The notes under the pieces are model-generated. The model did no database searches and was not told where the DNA came from. It was given only the letters and a program-made list of their open reading frames with translations. A stretch of DNA of 20,309 nt from a virus. Position 1 is the first letter of the stretch; every line of letters begins with the position of its first letter. Location of the stretch: IMG/VR virus record IMGVR_UViG_3300042691_009241, positions 1 to 20,309 of that record; one strand, 5' to 3'. Shown here piece by piece: positions 3,594 through 19,351 of the stretch. Made by a program: the position numbers and the translations under genes.

Positions 3594-4123
3594 TATCCGT
3601 AAGTTACGATTAAGTAACCACCAGTACATTGGACTGAAGTGACATATCCTGTACCACCACCGGGAAGAGCAACCCAAGAACCATCCTGTTTTATATATGT
3701 GGCTCCACTAACAGTATCTTGATAAAAATCACCATTATTTCCAATGGTATCGCTTGGTGGACCACCGCCTAGCGTCGAAGAAGAGAACCACTGGGCACTT
3801 CTTGGAATGAATTCATATATCGTATCTCCGGCCGTATCTACTCCACGAACACGCATCAATACAATATCATCTTCTACTGCATTCACACCATTCACTGGAT
3901 AGGCTGGAGCCAAGAATCCATCACTATTCTCAGCTGATGCCTCATCTGCATCTTGGTAATTTATTCCATTGGCACAGACACGCTGCTCTATCCAGCTATG
4001 CTTGTATCCAATACATGATCCCGTGCCACTCTCCGTAGTGTCTACGGCAGTAATTCGTGCGACAAACCACTCCGATTGAACGAAGTTGGCATTGCCTATC
4101 GTATTGACATTCATCAATGCCAT
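3593..4123 (-). CDS. Distal tail or short fibre protein with G-D-x-Y fibre motif
   Basis: The protein has 176 residues. The N-terminal part (FVARITAVDTTESG...YKHSWIEQRVC) followed by APAYPVNGVNAVEDDIVLMRVRG matches, from memory, a family common in planctomycetes and their phages with consensus 'aRIT...YsW.Eq...' and 'nPAyevNG..avp...VvwlrrG'. Residues about 120-160 (GGGPPSDTIGNNGDFYQDT, then TYIKQDGSWVAL) resemble the short segment that follows collagen-like or fibre repeats in many phage fibres. It begins 5 bases after the 359-residue tail protein; no strong ribosome binding site precedes ATG 4123, and ATG 4114 (MNVNTIG) is an alternative start. Its stop overlaps the next start as TAATG. Likely a structural tail-tip or fibre part; exact role unknown. 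Confidence 0.65.
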   Translation of the reverse strand: MALMNVNTIGNANFVQSEWFVARITAVDTTESGTGSCIGYKHSWIEQRVCANGINYQDADEASAENSDGFLAPAYPVNGVNAVEDDIVLMRVRGVDTAGDTIYEFIPRSAQWFSSSTLGGGPPSDTIGNNGDFYQDTVSGATYIKQDGSWVALPGGGTGYVTSVQCTGGYLIVTYG

Positions 4124-4128
4124 GATCG

Positions 4129-5208
4129 TTAATCCAGTTTGAACAAGCGTTCCATCGGATACGATTCGTATACGGGCCTTCCATCTAAAGCCGGATTGCT
4201 AGGATTCTTCGTCTGGACATAATAATATTTCAATTCTCCAGCCCTTGGAAGAAGATTGTGCCCGTAGGTGATCTTGAATCCCGTGCTTGCTGGAATGTCA
4301 GCTGACAAGTCACGATAAGGCTGCATGAAGCAAATAAATACGAATGTCACATCACAGAGCTTTTGGGCGACAGACGATCCAGAAGCGGGATCGACTTTGA
4401 ACAGAACTTCTGGGGGCGGATATCGCTTTGATTCGATTCCTTCAAACAAGAGCGATCCCTTTGGATAACCAAAGAAATCGTACTGATTGACCTTGCCGAA
4501 TCCAGAGACAACATTCTCAGCGAACACGATCTCGTAAGGAACGAAGTACCAAGTGAATTTGACCTTCTGCTTTACTATTCTCAGGACGATACCGCCACCA
4601 TTCTGATTGGTCGCTGGAAGGTCATTAGGCACTGCGCCACTCTGCGTCTTGAATGTGAATTGGCCTTGAGGGCTTGTCAGGAACTCAGTATTTGGCTCAG
4701 ATTCAATATCGACGAATCTCAAGTATTCTCTTGGATCGGTGAAATTGACGAAGTTGTCATTTATGTCGTAGTACCATTTAAGCTGCTGCTGCTTACCCTT
4801 CAAATCCGTGTCATTCATCAGCAGATAAGGACGAGGCTCGAATTGGACCGTTACTTTGTATTTCTGATAAAAGACAAAATCGTAGATGTAATTAACTGAT
4901 TTGTCACGCTGGTAAGTCTCGCCAAGACTTCTGCCAGCTGGCTGGATTCCTTCGATATTGGTAATCTTGGAAGCGAATAGCCAGTCGTAGTATGGATGCG
5001 CTGCCGGAAGTCTTCTTACCAGTCTTCCAGTACCATCTCCAGCCTTATAGACGCTACCAAGGATATCGCTTACCAACGCTCCAAGATTGGCACGATCAAT
5101 GATGAAATCCATCGTCGCAGCACCGCCATCGGTCTGAAACGATGCGTTTGACGGGCTAGTCCTGTCGATTAGCTCATAGAGATTTCTTGATGAAGGTTCA
5201 ATTGCCAT
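4129..5208 (-). CDS. Conserved distal tail protein following the tape measure
   Basis: The protein has 359 residues and lies directly downstream of the tape measure, the usual place for distal-tail or baseplate hub proteins. It has an aromatic, beta-strand-rich composition without membrane segments. Recognisable pieces are HPYYDWLFASKITNIEGIQP, EPRPYLLMNDTD, GEFLTSP-like NTEFLTSPQGQFTF, GKVNQYDFFGYPKGSLLF, and a terminal GRPVYESYPMERLF. From memory these segments recur in the same order in a conserved but functionally unassigned family of planctomycete-type phages. The ATG at 5208 overlaps the tape-measure TAA as TAATG, with AAGGGG 7 bases upstream, so the start is well supported. I infer a structural baseplate or tail-tip role; the specific activity is unknown. 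Confidence 0.7.
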   Translation of the reverse strand: MAIEPSSRNLYELIDRTSPSNASFQTDGGAATMDFIIDRANLGALVSDILGSVYKAGDGTGRLVRRLPAAHPYYDWLFASKITNIEGIQPAGRSLGETYQRDKSVNYIYDFVFYQKYKVTVQFEPRPYLLMNDTDLKGKQQQLKWYYDINDNFVNFTDPREYLRFVDIESEPNTEFLTSPQGQFTFKTQSGAVPNDLPATNQNGGGIVLRIVKQKVKFTWYFVPYEIVFAENVVSGFGKVNQYDFFGYPKGSLLFEGIESKRYPPPEVLFKVDPASGSSVAQKLCDVTFVFICFMQPYRDLSADIPASTGFKITYGHNLLPRAGELKYYYVQTKNPSNPALDGRPVYESYPMERLFKLD

Positions 5209-6812
5209 TATCGAACCCCTTGCTGAGGAGCATTTTGTTTGCCTTGTCCAAGTGCCCAGCCAACTAGCTGCTTCATTCCTTCAGCCATCATCTTTGTATT
5301 ATCGGCAGTTTGTAGAGCAGCATTTTGCTGAGACTGCCCAAATGCAGCTTGCATCATGTTCTTTCCAAGATCGGCTATGCCTGAGTAAGATGCCTGCTTT
5401 GCTGCTGCGCCAACTGATGCGCCTTGAGTATATTCCGGCATACCTCTTGATGGCCCAAAAGCTCTACTAAATGAATCTGCCTGCGCCTCCATGCTTCTGT
5501 CCATGCTTTCTTGGACAGATTTGGACATATCTTTTAGCTCTTGCTCGCCAGAAGAGCTAAACCAGCTTGTAACCCAAGCTGCTGCATCCAATAAAGCAAC
5601 CGTTATCGCTTTAATTCCAACCATGAAAGTATGGACAACGCCAATTGCAAGATTCAATCCTCTGGCAATACTATCGAATGAGATTAACAATACTGGAGTC
5701 AAAACTGACAATATTTCAGCAATATCATAAAACAATGGAATTATGCTTTCCAAGACGGGGATCAGCATATTTATTACATTTGCCCACAAAGCTATTATTG
5801 GAGCAGCTACTTTAATTAGAGCATTTCCAAATTGCTGCATTACTGGAGCAAGCATATTTGCCAACGGCATCAAAGTGTCTGCAAATGCTCTAATTATTGG
5901 AACTATGGCCTGAATTATTGGTCTTAACCCAACTCCAATTGTTGCCATTAAGTCACTGATGGCTAATTGAAGTTGAGCCATTAACGCCGGGTCTAAGGCT
6001 TTTACAAAGCCGGAAATTAGATTTATCAATTCAAATAAATAACCGGGTGCGTTTGCAACTGCCTGTGTTACAAGCATTAGCCCCTTAGCTGCTGCCATTG
6101 CTGCTGCCGTTATTCCCTCAACTGCTTTTGAAAACATATTTGGCAGTGCCATACTCAATGCAGAGAGTATGGAGTCATCCATTTCACCTTCGCCACCAAC
6201 ACCTCTTCCGCCACCAATCAAGCCACCGCCACCCCCTCCACCTATTGCTGCTGTTTCAAAAGATGAGCCAAGATCATCCATCTTGTTTGCAAGAAGTTCA
6301 ACCCCATCCAGAAATTGAGCATCTTCCCATTGACTGTAAAGCCTTCCGTACTCGTCTACACTTCTCCCAGAATATTCAACTATTTTTCCAAATCTCTGAA
6401 TCTGTCTTCCTTCGCCACTAAGATCTGGAAGAGAATCCATTATCTCTATAGGTATTTCTCTGAAATCGTCTTCCCATTGAGAGAACATACTTCCAAATTC
6501 AATAATTGATGATGTGGTTCTTTGGATCGAGCCACCCATTTCATCAATTCTTTGAGATACACTTACTATTGCCGTGCTTACAGGATCAGCAGATTTTGCT
6601 ACATCCTTAAATGAACTTTGGATATTTTCTGATGGCGTTTTTTCTTTTGCAGCCGGTGTAGCCTTCGCCTTCTCCTCTTTAGGCTGGACAACCTTTATGT
6701 TTTTTATTGCCGAAATTATTCCATGTATTCCTGTAAGTATTTTGGATAAATTCCTATTAGCCTCCTCAAGTAAGGACACTGCGCCTTCAAGATTTTCCGC
6801 TGGAGTCGCCAT
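5208..6812 (-). CDS. Tape measure protein
   Basis: The protein has 534 residues and sits immediately downstream of the G/GT chaperone frames, the canonical tape-measure position. Residues 1-115 are helical with a Lys/Ala/Pro-rich linker (about 42-61). A Gly-rich hinge occurs at about 191-208. Residues 215-415 are long hydrophobic helices (LMLVTQAVANAPGYLFELIN, IPVLESIIPLFYDIAEILSV, KAITVALLDAAAWVTSW), typical of the membrane-active portion, and the C-terminus is Gln/Ala-rich and polar. It sets tail length and later exits to the host membrane during DNA entry. At the family rule of about 0.15 nm per residue, 534 residues would suggest a tail near 80 nm. The start has GGGAG about 8 bases upstream and overlaps the T-frame end by 26 bases. 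A SQWED-containing repeat occurs at residues 111 and 160. Confidence 0.85.
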   Translation of the reverse strand: MATPAENLEGAVSLLEEANRNLSKILTGIHGIISAIKNIKVVQPKEEKAKATPAAKEKTPSENIQSSFKDVAKSADPVSTAIVSVSQRIDEMGGSIQRTTSSIIEFGSMFSQWEDDFREIPIEIMDSLPDLSGEGRQIQRFGKIVEYSGRSVDEYGRLYSQWEDAQFLDGVELLANKMDDLGSSFETAAIGGGGGGGLIGGGRGVGGEGEMDDSILSALSMALPNMFSKAVEGITAAAMAAAKGLMLVTQAVANAPGYLFELINLISGFVKALDPALMAQLQLAISDLMATIGVGLRPIIQAIVPIIRAFADTLMPLANMLAPVMQQFGNALIKVAAPIIALWANVINMLIPVLESIIPLFYDIAEILSVLTPVLLISFDSIARGLNLAIGVVHTFMVGIKAITVALLDAAAWVTSWFSSSGEQELKDMSKSVQESMDRSMEAQADSFSRAFGPSRGMPEYTQGASVGAAAKQASYSGIADLGKNMMQAAFGQSQQNAALQTADNTKMMAEGMKQLVGWALGQGKQNAPQQGVR

Positions 6813-7095
6813 GCCTATTCTCCCATGCAGCCTCTAGCTCTTGAATCGACTTTCCAAAGGCGAGGCCCATCTCGAAGAACTGCTGCCTTGCAAGCGATTC
6901 GTTCTCTCCAAAATGCGGATCAATCCTCAATGGTACGCCAGTCTTCTTATTCCTTGGCCTGTAATATATAAGCGACACTTGCCTCATCGTCAGCTTGGCC
7001 ACTTGATCCATCGACAAGCAGTATGGCTCATCAACTAATCCAGCTACAAGCTGTGGCCAATTCGGCGTTATGTCTTCGCCTCCTGCCCCTTGGCC
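6787..7095 (-). CDS. T domain of tail assembly chaperone GT (made by -1 frameshift from G)
   Basis: This open frame has no well-placed start of its own. Read upstream of the TTG at 7017 it continues without a stop through the end of the G gene, encoding PNWPQLVAGLVDEPYCLSMD before the 7017-6787 part. The slippery heptamer GGGAAAG at 7101-7095 joins the frames: 143 residues of G plus 102 of this frame give a 245-residue GT product. The W..L...L.DEPYCLS...V..LT..Q....YY.PR segment and the terminal ELEAAWENRHG resemble C-terminal chaperone regions in other siphoviruses (from memory). In lambda, GT bridges tail tube subunits to the tape measure; the tape measure gene overlaps the end here by 26 bases. 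An independent 76-residue gene from 7017, or 74 from ATG 7011, is less likely. Confidence 0.8.
   Translation of the reverse strand, partial: GQGAGGEDITPNWPQLVAGLVDEPYCLSMDQVAKLTMRQVSLIYYRPRNKKTGVPLRIDPHFGENESLARQQFFEMGLAFGKSIQELEAAWENRHGDSSGKS
7055..7095 (-). other. Nested inverted repeats just after the slippery site
   Basis: In the transcript GGCCAA (7095-7090) can pair with TTGGCC (7060-7055), and inside it GGCG (7080-7077) can pair with CGCC (7067-7064) around a 9-base loop. The outer stem starts at the last base of the heptamer, closer than the usual 5-9 base gap, so it would have to be partly opened by the ribosome. It may stimulate frameshifting or be chance. Confidence 0.3.
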
Positions 7096-7523
7096 TTTCC
7101 CACCGCAACAGGGAAAGAACGCTCAACTATCATCTCAATAAGTGATGAAATTTCAGAGTTTTCATTTATAAGTGTGTTTGCATCATTTGGTGAAATACCG
7201 GCCAATATTGAAAGTAGGGTTGATATGCCCCAAAGCGTCCTTAGATTCTCGCTTGTTTTTTTACCACCAAAAACAAAGTCGCCATTTTTTATTGATTCAA
7301 TAACCTGTGCGATCTGCTTGTCATATTCCTCTTTGTCGAGGAATTCTTTGTACTCACGAATCTTCTCAAGCGATTTCCGCTCAAATGCCCTTTCAAGCTC
7401 AGATTGCTTTTCAAGAGTAAGGAGTGAGATTTTGTACTTATTGCCTTTGGAGCATACCCATTCGATAGCTCCTCCAGACTGTCCAATGGAGTCGGAGAGG
7501 GTGTGGAGTCCCATTTCAATCAT
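7068..7523 (-). CDS. Tail assembly chaperone G
   Basis: The protein has 151 residues if started at ATG 7523, or 148 from ATG 7514 (MGLHTLSDSIGQ), which has the better-spaced AAAGG. It is mainly helical and charged in the middle (LEKQSELERAFERKSLEKIREYKEF) with a hydrophobic helix (TLWGISTLLSILAGISPNDANTL), like G-type chaperones that hold the tape measure in a soluble state during tail assembly. Order tail tube, this gene, -1 frame extension, tape measure matches the standard siphovirus arrangement. Near its 3' end, codons GTG GGA AAG contain the GGGAAAG heptamer that makes the GT fusion. Its ATG overlaps the preceding TGA (ATGA arrangement), indicating translational coupling to the tail-tube-like gene. 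Sequence similarity to a named family is weak, so the call rests on position and frameshift. Confidence 0.8.
   Translation of the reverse strand: MIEMGLHTLSDSIGQSGGAIEWVCSKGNKYKISLLTLEKQSELERAFERKSLEKIREYKEFLDKEEYDKQIAQVIESIKNGDFVFGGKKTSENLRTLWGISTLLSILAGISPNDANTLINENSEISSLIEMIVERSFPVAVGKAKGQEAKT
7095..7101 (-). other. Programmed -1 ribosomal frameshift site GGGAAAG
   Basis: In the G reading frame the bases fall as G-GGA-AAG, a perfect X-XXY-YYZ slippery heptamer and the same heptamer used by the phage lambda G/T gene pair. The -1 frame is open on both sides of the site, from upstream of it to the stop at 6787. The zero frame stops at 7070-7068, only 25 bases after the heptamer. Confidence 0.85.
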
Positions 7524-8035
7524 CCTTTCGGGTGTGGTGCGTAATCAACTTCCGTAGACAAGCAGGCAAACTCTATATCATACTCTAGCAAATTTCTGAC
7601 AGAGTTGTCATAGCTAGTGCTAACAACTACTGAATTTGTTACTTGGAATAAAGTTCGTTTCTGGCCAGCCTGATTGGTGTATTTGATTTCCAGCTTGCCT
7701 TTTTCGTTGATGATCGGCACTCTTGGACCGTCATTGATGCTTATGGAATTATCTAGGAATAGATAACCGTGAATCGTGATTTTGGTTTCACGCATACCGC
7801 CATTAAGCATCTGCATTGGGATGCCATAATTCTTCCACGCTGGAACGGCAGACAAATCGCCATTGACGATATCGCCTTCAATATTCGCATCACGGAGTGA
7901 CTTGATATTGGAGATATGAATAGACTCGTCCTCAATCTCAATGCCCCATTCGTCGGCAAAGAGAGTGAGGACGGTCCCCGGACGAGTCTCGGAAGTGAAG
8001 ACAACGCCAGAACCCTTACCTGAATAGAAGGGCAT
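7520..8035 (-). CDS. Tail tube-like protein 2
   Basis: The protein has 171 residues beginning MPFYSGKGSGVVF, parallel to the MAYYAGKTGFVTV start of the next gene upstream; both continue to an E-W-x-(I/M)-E-(I/L)-E segment and a glycine-containing 'G..G.(T/E)...' segment, so they look like diverged paralogs. Small beta-rich proteins with this beginning, placed before the chaperone and tape measure genes, are typical tail tube subunits. This copy is 30 residues longer and contains an extra central section (WKNYGIPMQMLNGGMRET). It could be the main tube protein, a minor tube or tube-initiator protein, or a decoration. ACGAGG about 9 bases before ATG 8035 is a good ribosome binding site. No cysteine cluster or membrane segment is seen. 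Confidence 0.65.
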   Translation of the reverse strand: MPFYSGKGSGVVFTSETRPGTVLTLFADEWGIEIEDESIHISNIKSLRDANIEGDIVNGDLSAVPAWKNYGIPMQMLNGGMRETKITIHGYLFLDNSISINDGPRVPIINEKGKLEIKYTNQAGQKRTLFQVTNSVVVSTSYDNSVRNLLEYDIEFACLSTEVDYAPHPKG

Positions 8036-8047
8036 GGCTTATCCTCG

Positions 8048-8473
8048 TTATCCTTGAGCGATAGTCTGGTTCTGAGCAGCTTGGATAACGCCAGTGTTAT
8101 CCATGTTTGTCAGGGTTCCAGTAAACTCAAATGTTGGCTTTTCACGCACATTATTTCCTACTGTAACACCAGTCAGGATCACATTGAGTGAAAATCCAAT
8201 AGTTCCAGTCTGCAATAGGCCAAGCTCAACAGGAACAACCGTTCCCGCTTGGAAAGTGGTCAGGACTCCAGCGTCAGCAATACTCTCATACGGGCCAGAA
8301 GCAGAGATAGTGCCACCCCTAATACCAGACATAATCGAGTTCATGCCATAGGATTCAAAGTTGGTAGCATCCACCTCTTCGACTTCAAGCTCCATGCTCC
8401 ACTCTTCGAGGGGAATGCGAACTGCTGGCGATCCAACAGTAACGAATCCAGTCTTACCAGCGTAATAAGCCAT
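8048..8473 (-). CDS. Major tail tube protein candidate (tail tube-like protein 1)
   Basis: The protein has 141 residues (MAYYAGKTGFVTVGSPAVRI), rich in Thr, Val and Gly and low in Cys, fitting a beta-sandwich tube subunit. The EEWSMELEVEEVDATNFES segment is recognisable, from memory, in tail tube proteins of other siphoviruses with the 'W.......vD.TN' pattern. GGGAGG about 9 bases upstream of ATG 8473 is the strongest ribosome binding site in this block, consistent with high expression as the major tube protein. It precedes a longer paralog-like gene (7520-8035) and the chaperone pair. Assignment of major versus minor tube between the two neighbours is an inference. Confidence 0.7.
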   Translation of the reverse strand: MAYYAGKTGFVTVGSPAVRIPLEEWSMELEVEEVDATNFESYGMNSIMSGIRGGTISASGPYESIADAGVLTTFQAGTVVPVELGLLQTGTIGFSLNVILTGVTVGNNVREKPTFEFTGTLTNMDNTGVIQAAQNQTIAQG

Positions 8474-9805: not shown

Positions 9806-10413
9806 TACACATAGCCCTCGGTGTCATAGCTCCATTGAAGCAGATATCCACTCTGCGTCTTGATTGGACTCAATGCCATTGCCGTGTCAGGAATACTCTT
9901 CCTTCCCTTATCAGCAAGATACTGGGAATAATCTGCCGGATTTCCGGTAGGACCATTGATGTCCTTGTAGCCAACTTTGGCTTTAACTCCAGATGAATCA
10001 ATTTTATATTTAATGCTCTTAGCCAGACTTGTTGTTCTGTATCTGGGATATTGTCCCGGCCTTGATCCCGGTGGACCTTTCAGCCTTAACAATTCTTGCT
10101 GGTGCGAAGATACAAAATACTTAACAGTCTGCTTCAGTTCTTTTTCTAATGTAGCACTATCCACTGGAGAAGTCTGTACAACCTGCTGAGACGATGTGGT
10201 TGTTGTCACATCTTCTGGAATGTCAGCTGGATTGTATGGTCTTCCACTAAGGAAGTTGACTACGGCGTTAAAATATCTAACCGCTGACCAGACTATTTCT
10301 CTGGCCAGATCGGTTATTTTTGTTCTGTTAGTGTTGGTTACATTCTGCGTGACAACAGTATCAACCGTTGGCGTACCATCGTACTCTATTACCAGTACAG
10401 AGTGGAATGCCAT
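9805..10413 (-). CDS. HK97 gp10-like head-tail joining protein
   Basis: The protein has 202 residues. Residues 32-58 and 87-112 are helical. Then follows GPPGSRPGQYPRYRTTSLAK with SIKYKIDSSGVKAKVGYKD, and a YSQYLADKGRKS segment. The 'G.P..yP..rTG.L..SI.......G....VG.......YA..le.G..r' order is the hallmark of the HK97 gp10-like neck or tail-completion family. The N-terminal 30 residues are Thr/Val-rich and longer than usual. The stop overlaps the next ATG as TAATG, and the start lies 6 bases after the 105-residue gene. Acts at the capsid-tail interface by family; its precise partner is not visible. Confidence 0.7.
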   Translation of the reverse strand: MAFHSVLVIEYDGTPTVDTVVTQNVTNTNRTKITDLAREIVWSAVRYFNAVVNFLSGRPYNPADIPEDVTTTTSSQQVVQTSPVDSATLEKELKQTVKYFVSSHQQELLRLKGPPGSRPGQYPRYRTTSLAKSIKYKIDSSGVKAKVGYKDINGPTGNPADYSQYLADKGRKSIPDTAMALSPIKTQSGYLLQWSYDTEGYV

Positions 10414-11145: not shown

Positions 11146-12486
11146 TTAGGCGTTGTTGTTCTTGACGCTGTGCCAAGGACTCCAGACGCTGGGGATACCA
11201 CGCTCGTTGGCGAAGTAGGTTGCAACGATGCCCCTGTCGAGCATCTCGTACTGGTTAGGGCTGGCCTGAGTGACGGTCAGCGGGTAGTTCTGCATATAGC
11301 GGAACGACTTGCCAGCTTCCATCATGAACCACAGACCATCAGTGTTGGTCTGATTCAGGTTCAGACCATCCGCTGCCAAGCAACGCTGCTCGATCAACGG
11401 GCTGGACAGAACTTGGAACTGTCCAGAGTAGGGGTTGCCGGGAGTACTGCTAACATTCAGGACATCAGCGTTGGCCTGAGTCGAACCGGGAGTGGTGCGA
11501 CGATCAGTGCTGCTTGCACCCAGAATCAGGTTAGCGGTAGCCAACTTCGCCGGGTTCACCAGAATGGTGTTGGGCGAAATCAAGAGACGCTTGCCGGTAT
11601 GGGGGTCTTCCATACGGGAGAAGAGCAGCATGGTTGACTGGATTGAGGTCCAGTCGATCAGCTGGTTGGTGTGGGCGTTGAGGTAACCCAAGGTCCGGCT
11701 CGTCACATAGGTGTTGTAGCTCGACCCGTTGTACTTGAAGGTGTTGTTCACCCCAAGCAGCGTGTCGATGACTTCCAACTCCTTGCGATAAGCAAGCTCA
11801 GTACCAACCGAATTCGCCTGCTGGAGGATTGCTCCGGTCAGGTCGAAGAAGACCGTTTCCTTGAGAACATCAATCGCCAGAGCGTTCTCACGGGTTTCGG
11901 GAGTCTCGATCCAACGCTCACCGAACTGAGCCCTTGGATGAGTTTCGCCGGGAGCCCGCTTGCGACCCCGATCACCGATGTTCTGAAGACCGATAACCTT
12001 CTGACCGTTCAGCTTGGTAGCTTCGACGGGCATCAGCTTATCAGCGATCAGCGCAGGGTTCTGGAAGGCTTCCAGAATCTTCACTTCCACCAGACCACCA
12101 ACGATGGCGGTGAAGGTGTTGATGTTCAAGAAAGCGGAAGGATCGAGACCGAAGCCAGTAGCTTCGACCAAGGCCCTCTGCTCGTTGGGGAAACCGCCTT
12201 CAACCAGAGATCGGGCAACCGTGTACTGATTCAGACTGCCGGACTCGGGATTGAAAACATTGCGCCAGCTGGGTCCGACGATGGACTCGGCCAGCTCTTG
12301 CAGGCTAAACTGCTCAGGACGAACGCTGCGATCCTTCAGGATGCGGTTGCCAGCGAAGTCCCGATTGTCGTTGCCTTCCTTGTCGCACAGACCAAGACCT
12401 TGGCGCATCTCGGTCAGGAATCGCCAACGCCCGTTAGTCTCCTTGCTGCGAGACTCGTACAGGCTCCTCAACTTAATCGTGTTCAT
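11146..12486 (-). CDS. Major capsid protein, HK97 fold
   Basis: The protein has 446 residues. The N-terminal arm (about 1-70) is charged, with PEQFSLQELAESIVGPSW; then follow an extended region and core (GLVEVKILEAFQNPALIADKLM, RGRKRAPGETHPRAQFGERW), a mid-domain strand set (HTGKRLLISPNTILVNPAKLATAN), and a C-terminal IVATYFANERGIPSVWSPWHSV, which fits the final strand-turn of HK97-fold shells. It follows the protease-scaffold and decoration-like genes, the standard order. No separate processing site is obvious. Its G+C and third-position G/C are visibly higher than those of the tape measure and HNH genes, consistent with selection for high expression. GGGAG lies about 11 bases before the ATG at 12486. 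Confidence 0.85.
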   Translation of the reverse strand: MNTIKLRSLYESRSKETNGRWRFLTEMRQGLGLCDKEGNDNRDFAGNRILKDRSVRPEQFSLQELAESIVGPSWRNVFNPESGSLNQYTVARSLVEGGFPNEQRALVEATGFGLDPSAFLNINTFTAIVGGLVEVKILEAFQNPALIADKLMPVEATKLNGQKVIGLQNIGDRGRKRAPGETHPRAQFGERWIETPETRENALAIDVLKETVFFDLTGAILQQANSVGTELAYRKELEVIDTLLGVNNTFKYNGSSYNTYVTSRTLGYLNAHTNQLIDWTSIQSTMLLFSRMEDPHTGKRLLISPNTILVNPAKLATANLILGASSTDRRTTPGSTQANADVLNVSSTPGNPYSGQFQVLSSPLIEQRCLAADGLNLNQTNTDGLWFMMEAGKSFRYMQNYPLTVTQASPNQYEMLDRGIVATYFANERGIPSVWSPWHSVKNNNA

Positions 12487-16768: not shown

Positions 16769-17223
16769 TAAACTTTCCTTGACCTCTTACCGTCTCTTAA
16801 TTTTGCACAAGCCCTACACCTTTTCCTTTCAGAACCATTTTTTCTTTTCTCTAGTACCACATTTTTACCTTCAATTTTATGTCCTTTTGTGCAGCAATTG
16901 CCTCTCATCGCATTCATATTTTTTGAATGCGATCTCTTAGAATTTTCTGCACGAGTGACAACTTCCATATGCGCTGTGTTTACACATGATCTGTTTCTGC
17001 AAGTATGATCTATCGTCATGCCTTCTTCTATTTTTCCAATAATCTCTTCATATGCAAATCTATGAGCCATCAACTGTTTTGTTTTTCTATTTCCAACAGA
17101 CTCCATTAGTCTTCCATAGCCATAAATACTTATTGGCCCATTCCATATCCAGCAACCCTCGGCAGATGTTGCTGAAACATTATTCCAAAATCTTTTCTTT
17201 AAGCATTCAGCCTTTTTAGCCAT
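16768..17223 (-). CDS. HNH endonuclease (freestanding homing type)
   Basis: The protein has 151 residues. The HNH core is AHRFAYEEIIGKI (H54), MTIDHTCRNRSC (D72-H73, C75, C80) and VNTAHMEVVTRAENSKRS (N82, H85, N94), the HNH_3-type pattern. A C-terminal Cys/His set (CCTKGHKIEGK around 110-120 and CRAC at 136-139) fits a zinc ribbon. The N-terminal WNNVSATSAEGCWIWNG with YGYGRL is also common in these phage enzymes. Such genes nick or cut at intergenic sites and spread to cognate sites; they are not virion parts. The sequence is more A/T-rich than the portal and capsid genes, fitting recent arrival. It overlaps the portal end by 8 bases and its TAA overlaps the next ATG as TAATG, so it disrupts neither. 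AAGG precedes ATG 17223. Confidence 0.85.
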   Translation of the reverse strand: MAKKAECLKKRFWNNVSATSAEGCWIWNGPISIYGYGRLMESVGNRKTKQLMAHRFAYEEIIGKIEEGMTIDHTCRNRSCVNTAHMEVVTRAENSKRSHSKNMNAMRGNCCTKGHKIEGKNVVLEKRKNGSERKRCRACAKLRDGKRSRKV

Positions 17224-19351
17224 TGCCTTTTTCCTTTTTGTCAGCTGCTTCCATTTGCCTTAAAACTTTATTAGCCCAAGCTCTACCAGCATCGGAGCCC
17301 CATAAGCTCCAAGCGATCCAACCAGCAGAATCCTTGCCCCAACCTTCGCCCTTCTTATCGACTTCGTGACGGGCAAAGTAGCTCACCATCCGCTTAATAG
17401 TGGAAGGCGACAGTTCTGCGCCATTCATCAGATCACGGGCACGGGCCACCCCAACCCCAGTACCTCCACGCCCATGCTTCTTCCTCAATTCAAGTCCACG
17501 CTTCGCAGCTTTGCGGACAGATTGAGGCGGGGTGAATGTGATATGGGAGTATTTGCCACCCTTCGATTCGGATACGGGCTGAACTTCTGGAACCGCATCC
17601 ACTTCCGGAGGAGCTTCCGGCTCGGATTGATCGGATGACCTTCCAGTGGAATGAGGAGGCAACTCTTGGGAGCCAGCAAGCGATTCTGGGAAGATGGCGT
17701 TGATATCCTCTTCAGCCATCAGCGGGAATGCAGCCTTGGCGATGGAACGGCCAACCTCAACAGGAATCTGTCCTGTAGCCACCCGCATCACGATTCCAAC
17801 CAGATTCTCGATCTGGAGCCCATTGAGAGCGGAATCGGATACTTGCGCCTCTCCTTCTCCACCAAGCGACTCGCTAGCCATCTTCTCGGCCTGCTGCTCG
17901 ATATTGCGCTGCTCTGCGTCGAAGTTCAGGCCGATTTCCTGAGTAATGGTCTGGGCCGATTTGATGCCCATACTCATGTAGGTCTGGTTTGATTGCGAAT
18001 CAGCAATCTTGTCCCGTGCTTCCACCGCTGGAGGAGTCACTAGGACATCAATCACATCCAGAATGTTGATAGGCAGATTGCCCATCTCCGCTGCCGTCCT
18101 GATTGCTTCACGGGCAATCCGTGTAAAATGCCTTTTGTAGAATGTTTGCAATCGAACACAGTTGCGGAGGAACGGCGATTCTGCCGTTAATGACGATGCG
18201 TAGTTCGCCCCAGCGATATTCGCTGAAGATAGCCATTCGGGGGCGTTATGCCTATTTCCAGCTGAACGGAGTAGACTTTGAAATATCTCTAAGTGATCTT
18301 TTGCGCCACTTGCACCCGGAGGAGCGACATAATTCATGCCCTTCGGAATATCCAGAAATGTTCCGGGCTCAATTTTCTGGTAGTCTGTCTGCCGTCCATT
18401 GGGAGCAGACGACACAGAATAATCCACCATCTCATCCACAAACGATTCTACTTGTGCAGCAGATGCCGTATCATGCTGGCGAACCGCAGCAATGGCAGAC
18501 TGTACGGATGCCCCTTCACCAAGGTTTTTCCGCAACTTGGACGCAATGCTGAATGTGTCGAGAGTCTCGTAGCTGAAGTCACTCAAGCCACGCTTAATCG
18601 CCTTTGGCACATTGCATTTGACATGGACAATGCGATCAGCATTAACCGTCTCACCCATCGAGGCATCTTTATTGGCTTCATCCTGTTCTTCTCCCTTTGG
18701 AGCGTTGTAGTCCACATAGTATGAGCGGATATTGAATACATCATCTGGATCAGTCTCGATTCCGTAGGACCAATGGGAGAAGTCCTCTCCCGGCGGTTGC
18801 ATGATCTGCTCTGGCTCAATTGTGCGAACCAATAACCGTCCAGAAGGCTGGGGAAATAAGCGGAGGAAGCATTCGCCATCGGTGCGGGAACGCTTGAAGA
18901 TTTCCTCCTCCATCATCGACCAGTCATTCTCGTTGAGGAAGCGGTCGAGGATATCTTGGCAGCGACGAACTGTTGATTCGTCGATATCTATGGTTCCCTT
19001 CGGAGCAATTCTGTAATTGAATCCGCCCCCAATGACATAGCTGCATAGTCCGTTAAGGAGTCCAATTGCATTTGGGTTTGTAGTGGTAACCAGTCGAGCT
19101 TGAGCCCTAATGAGGCTAAGCTGTTGTTCTGAGTACCAAAATGGGTAATTGGAACCGTAGCGACGATCATTTGGATTTGTGATAGGGTAAGAAAAAACGC
19201 CACCATCACGGAAACGATCCAGAAGATCGACATAGTTGCCCAGCCAGAAATCGTTAGTAAGGACATTTTCACGGATATTCCTCTTGACTACCTTGGGAGC
19301 GGATTCCCTTGGTGGAAGGAGAAAGTTGATGATTTTCTGCCAAGTAGTCAT
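17216..19351 (-). CDS. Portal protein with extra C-terminal domain
   Basis: The protein has 711 residues, longer than many portals. It starts MTTWQKIINFLLPPRE; the portal-like core includes FWYSEQQLSLIRAQARLVTT, LNGLCSYVIGGGF, FKRSRTDGECFLRLFPQ, LVRTIEPEQI, RIVHVKCNVPKAIKRGLSDF, and PEWLSSANIAGANYASSLTA, fitting the lambda/HK97-type portal family. A Pro/Glu/Ser-rich linker (about 569-597) leads to a domain at about 608-701, with KRGLELRKKHGRGGT, VGVARARDL, TIKRMVSYFARHEVDK and AWSLWGSDAGRAWA. From memory this second domain occurs, separate or fused, in proteins of many phages, with no function I can assign. The portal forms the DNA channel at the capsid vertex. Its ATG overlaps the terminase TGA (ATGA). 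Portal call sure; C-terminal domain role unknown. Confidence 0.85.
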   Translation of the reverse strand: MTTWQKIINFLLPPRESAPKVVKRNIRENVLTNDFWLGNYVDLLDRFRDGGVFSYPITNPNDRRYGSNYPFWYSEQQLSLIRAQARLVTTTNPNAIGLLNGLCSYVIGGGFNYRIAPKGTIDIDESTVRRCQDILDRFLNENDWSMMEEEIFKRSRTDGECFLRLFPQPSGRLLVRTIEPEQIMQPPGEDFSHWSYGIETDPDDVFNIRSYYVDYNAPKGEEQDEANKDASMGETVNADRIVHVKCNVPKAIKRGLSDFSYETLDTFSIASKLRKNLGEGASVQSAIAAVRQHDTASAAQVESFVDEMVDYSVSSAPNGRQTDYQKIEPGTFLDIPKGMNYVAPPGASGAKDHLEIFQSLLRSAGNRHNAPEWLSSANIAGANYASSLTAESPFLRNCVRLQTFYKRHFTRIAREAIRTAAEMGNLPINILDVIDVLVTPPAVEARDKIADSQSNQTYMSMGIKSAQTITQEIGLNFDAEQRNIEQQAEKMASESLGGEGEAQVSDSALNGLQIENLVGIVMRVATGQIPVEVGRSIAKAAFPLMAEEDINAIFPESLAGSQELPPHSTGRSSDQSEPEAPPEVDAVPEVQPVSESKGGKYSHITFTPPQSVRKAAKRGLELRKKHGRGGTGVGVARARDLMNGAELSPSTIKRMVSYFARHEVDKKGEGWGKDSAGWIAWSLWGSDAGRAWANKVLRQMEAADKKEKGNG

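Follow-up and report, generated by a model that had tools for sequence, protein, structure and literature searches.

A predicted lambda G/GT-type programmed −1 frameshift in the tail assembly chaperone gene of an uncultured tailed phage

In bacteriophage lambda, the tail assembly chaperones G and GT are made from overlapping frames joined by a −1 ribosomal frameshift (Levin 1993; Xu 2004, 2013, 2014, as cited in PMC5009743). As summarized in that source, the lambda products arise at a ratio of 30:1, G binds the tape measure and T binds the tail shaft protein; the slippery sequence G_GGA_AAG is described there as highly shift-prone in E. coli. The same paper reports g–t frameshifts in the haloarchaeal viruses HCTV-1, -2 and -5, and describes the tail-chaperone frameshift as widely conserved despite low sequence similarity (PMC5009743). 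Here we analysed a 20,309-nucleotide stretch of viral DNA (IMG/VR record IMGVR_UViG_3300042691_009241, positions 1–20,309; hereafter the window), which reads as the structural module of an uncultured tailed phage. The evidence points very strongly to a programmed −1 ribosomal frameshift of the lambda G/GT type in its tail assembly chaperone gene. The mechanism is well known and textbook; what is new is confined to the sequences themselves and to the way lineages have exchanged one heptamer for another.

Architecture of the G/T locus

The genes around the site lie on the minus strand in the order tail protein, G, T, tape measure. Directly upstream of G is a 171-residue tail protein gene (7520–8035; PHROG tail-protein match, E = 0.0035), the stop codon of which overlaps an ATG at 7523, and beyond it is a probable major tail (tube) protein gene (8048–8473, 141 residues; PHROG 1407, E = 8 × 10−5). 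G and T thus sit between the major tail protein and tape-measure genes, with both upstream matches being weak. The downstream gene (5208–6812) starts 26 nucleotides before the end of T and encodes a 534-residue protein that matched PHROG tape-measure profiles (E about 10−7) and, weakly in tblastn, proteins annotated as tape measures. A similar junction was present in 10 of the 10 relatives checked, in which an open reading frame of 490–907 residues begins 11–38 nucleotides before the T end. When the downstream frames of four relatives were scanned for tape-measure profiles, those of L025 and L023 matched (E = 2 × 10−6 and 1 × 10−5), that of L009 matched weakly (E = 0.075) and that of L049 had no such match. 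Position before the tape-measure gene and lambda-like overlaps support a tail-chaperone role.

Two features elsewhere in the module were recorded. The portal frame (17216–19351, minus strand) is extended at its C terminus by an additional domain of some 110 residues (residues 600–710; window 17216–17555) that matches PHROG 2859, of unknown function; stretches of it are 39–51% identical to proteins of Vibrio, Synechococcus, Roseobacter and other phages that are annotated as coil-containing protein, capsid maturation protease, portal or major capsid protein. At the place expected for the major capsid protein, a 446-residue frame (11146–12486) had no PHROG or Pfam match.

The G frame (7068–7514, minus strand) ends at TAA 7070–7068 and encodes 148 residues from ATG 7514 or 151 from ATG 7523. 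As the initial annotation had stated, it contains G_GGA_AAG at 7101–7095 in the phase GTG|GGA|AAG; GGGAAAG occurs nowhere else on the window's minus strand. In-frame X_XXY_YYZ patterns occur at 16 of 6,185 positions across the window's genes, and strongly slippery types at only 3 of these positions, one of them in the G/T overlap. A second pattern in phase, TTTCCCT at 7116, was rejected as the slip site, being absent from most relatives.

Across this heptamer the −1 frame is open, as had been claimed: it opens at 7122, behind a stop codon, and runs to 6787. Inside the window's genes, 6.7% of −1 frame codons are stops (on average one per 15 codons), and from this rate the chance of 102 consecutive open codons is about 8 × 10−4. 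The heptamer and the open −1 frame together are more than chance. The T-type extension (6787–7095, minus strand) comprises 102 residues after the predicted slip, ends at TAA 6789–6787 and includes the block PNWPQLVAGLVDEPYCLSMD.

From the heptamer and the conserved −1 frame we infer a GT fusion (6787–7514, minus strand) made by a single −1 slip at 7095. The predicted product reads ...VAVGK|GQGAGGEDITPNWPQLVAGLVDEPYCLSMD... to the TAA at 6789–6787, with the G/T junction predicted as VAVGK|GQGAGGEDITPNWPQ. The initial annotation gave this fusion 245 residues, a length that applies if G begins at ATG 7523. An AAAGGA ribosome-binding site is better spaced for the second ATG, at 7514, and relatives of the L009–L016 group align from a first residue, Met, that matches 7514; G therefore probably starts there, which would give a G of 148 residues and a fusion of about 242.

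Conservation of slipperiness across lineages

A G alignment and a T alignment were each used to search IMG/VR, and both searches recovered the same 28 contigs, whereas searches with either single protein returned subsets of them; searches from outlying members added none beyond these 28. The contigs fall into about six lineages. The window's G is 38–98% identical to relatives, and its T extension, read in the −1 frame, 44–96%. At the matching position every contig has a slippery heptamer in frame (28/28, or 29/29 with the window), phased so that a tandem −1 slip could occur. The initial annotation had named relatives with −1 frame stops, or without a heptamer, as evidence that would count against the shift; neither kind was found among the 28 contigs, none of which has a −1 frame stop between the slip site and the T end.

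The heptamer itself differs between lineages. GGGAAAG is present in 17 of the 28 relatives (L002–L008, which are the window's own lineage, L009–L016, L023 and L024), A_AAA_AAG in three (L025–L027; L025:5992–5998, L026:6004–6010) and C_CCA_AAA_AAA_G in eight (L048–L055, around 3989–3999). Because two further lineages have other heptamers at the same place, what has been maintained is slipperiness rather than one DNA motif. One relative carries two in-frame GGGAAAG sites 15 nucleotides apart in a single G gene (L023:5971–5992); either could yield the fusion, with products differing solely in five intervening residues, and the pair perhaps tunes the G:GT ratio.

Codon usage at the site was examined in representatives of the GGGAAAG lineages, which are related by descent, so that these codon observations are not independent draws. 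The codon preceding GGA_AAG is GTG, ATG, TCG or ACG (V, M, S or T), and its wobble base is always G although the residue varies; no synonym takes the place of GGA or AAG in any of them, while upstream, along most of G, synonymous codon identity is about 50%. In the window's genes, G is the third base in 18% of Val codons, 13% of Ser codons and 21% of Thr codons, and GGA makes up 35% of Gly codons. A fixed wobble G followed by fixed GGA and AAG is the pattern that slippage requires.

The protein encoded by the −1 frame is conserved as well. The pattern PNWPQ..A.L.DEP[YF]CL recurs in this frame, and P-N-W-P-Q, A, L, D-E-P and C-L were invariant in an alignment of 12 T representatives. The claim that conserved-looking T sequence precedes any independent start was borne out: the pattern begins upstream of any usable start codon, with PNWPQ lying before every ATG, GTG and TTG in frame after the slip site.

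Alternative explanations and predicted mechanism

Were T instead translated independently from a start codon of its own, the heptamer would be incidental and its wobble base would be without constraint, contrary to what was observed. Candidate starts do exist in the −1 frame (TTG 7017, the first, then ATG 7011, and GTG 7002), but across all 29 sequences, none of the ATG, GTG or TTG codons among the 35 that follow the slip site has a Shine–Dalgarno-like sequence in front of it. Because the conserved block lies upstream of all these starts, a separately started T would miss its PNWPQ part; as originally calculated, a gene called from TTG 7017 would span 76 residues, with 26 missing, and one called from ATG 7011 would span 74, with 28 missing. 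An AGGAGG does stand 7 nucleotides before an ATA codon at 7071, and we considered that codon as a start, but it is not conserved (TTA in L003; GTA or ATA in the L009–L016 lineage). We regard an independently initiated T as highly improbable.

Slippage by RNA polymerase rather than by the ribosome could also make a shifted product, and runs of seven A in L025–L027 and L048–L055 leave room for it there. At the site in the window and its 17 GGGAAAG relatives, however, homopolymer runs do not exceed three, and such a sequence is not known to act as a polymerase-slippage site; the X_XXY_YYZ codon phase is the feature common to all lineages. Transcriptional slippage is a still fainter prospect. A one-base assembly error that split one continuous gene could mimic a frameshift, but the same frame relation recurs in 28 separately assembled contigs whose G proteins show 31–100% identity. 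These relatives refute an assembly indel, to which we give next to no credence. The initial proposal that a programmed −1 frameshift joins G and T is thus upheld by the heptamer and open frame in 28 of 28 relatives, the fixed wobble base and the conserved −1 frame protein.

In the programmed ribosomal frameshift that we favour, most ribosomes would translate G and stop at 7068. On a minority positioned over GGA AAG, both tRNAs would shift back by one base and pair with GGG AAA, after which the −1 frame would be read across the T extension as far as 6787; G is thus predicted to be abundant and GT scarce. The binding partners are likewise predicted, by analogy with lambda: G would coat the tape-measure protein, the product of the next gene downstream, and GT would recruit the major tail protein through its T part, so that the G:GT ratio would matter for tail assembly. 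Folding of the RNA downstream of the site in the window, L052, L009 and L025 revealed no stimulatory structure consistent across lineages (z = −2.4 in the window and L052, about 0 in L009 and L025).

Relation to lambda and haloarchaeal viruses

Scans of G and T against Pfam, PHROG and NCBIfam yielded nothing significant, placing neither protein in the lambda G/T sequence families of these libraries, and searches of isolated-phage proteins returned no match to either. Profile searches of solved structures gave chance matches only, hhalign of G and T against lambda G and T was negative, and the AlphaFold models, built from 11 sequences, were of too low a quality for use (pLDDT 44 and 56). A search for a prophage in genome contigs, using T and the portal, found none. 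Because no library, isolated phage, structure or lambda profile matched, it is by architecture, position and conservation that G and T are assigned to the functional class. The description of the −1 domain as T-like accordingly holds for position and architecture and not for sequence similarity to lambda T.

We tentatively suggest that G and T form a tail-chaperone family without detectable isolated-phage relatives, in which the heptamer has been swapped (GGGAAAG, AAAAAAG, CCCAAAAAAAG) at a fixed place; we consider this plausible rather than probable. Gene callers split or truncate frameshifted genes of this kind and, since G and T match no library, both would remain unnamed. Comparison of the relatives yields a small set of naturally occurring heptamer variants at a single site.

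HCTV-1, -2 and -5 infect archaeal hosts and are likened to this locus by description, the phage collection search being without a match for G or T. The window's G and T have no detectable sequence similarity to those of lambda (J02459), and the dimensions of the two loci differ: the heptamer lies 24 nucleotides from the G stop in the window and 15 in lambda, the T extension has 102 residues compared with 144, and the overlap between the end of T and the start of the tape-measure gene is 26 nucleotides compared with 8 at lambda T/H. The slip site, in contrast, is the same, as had been proposed: lambda has GGGAAAG at 10109–10115, the identical G_GGA_AAG in the identical phase. With the lambda order V, G, T, H, the chaperone gene in both genomes follows the tail-protein genes and precedes the tape measure.
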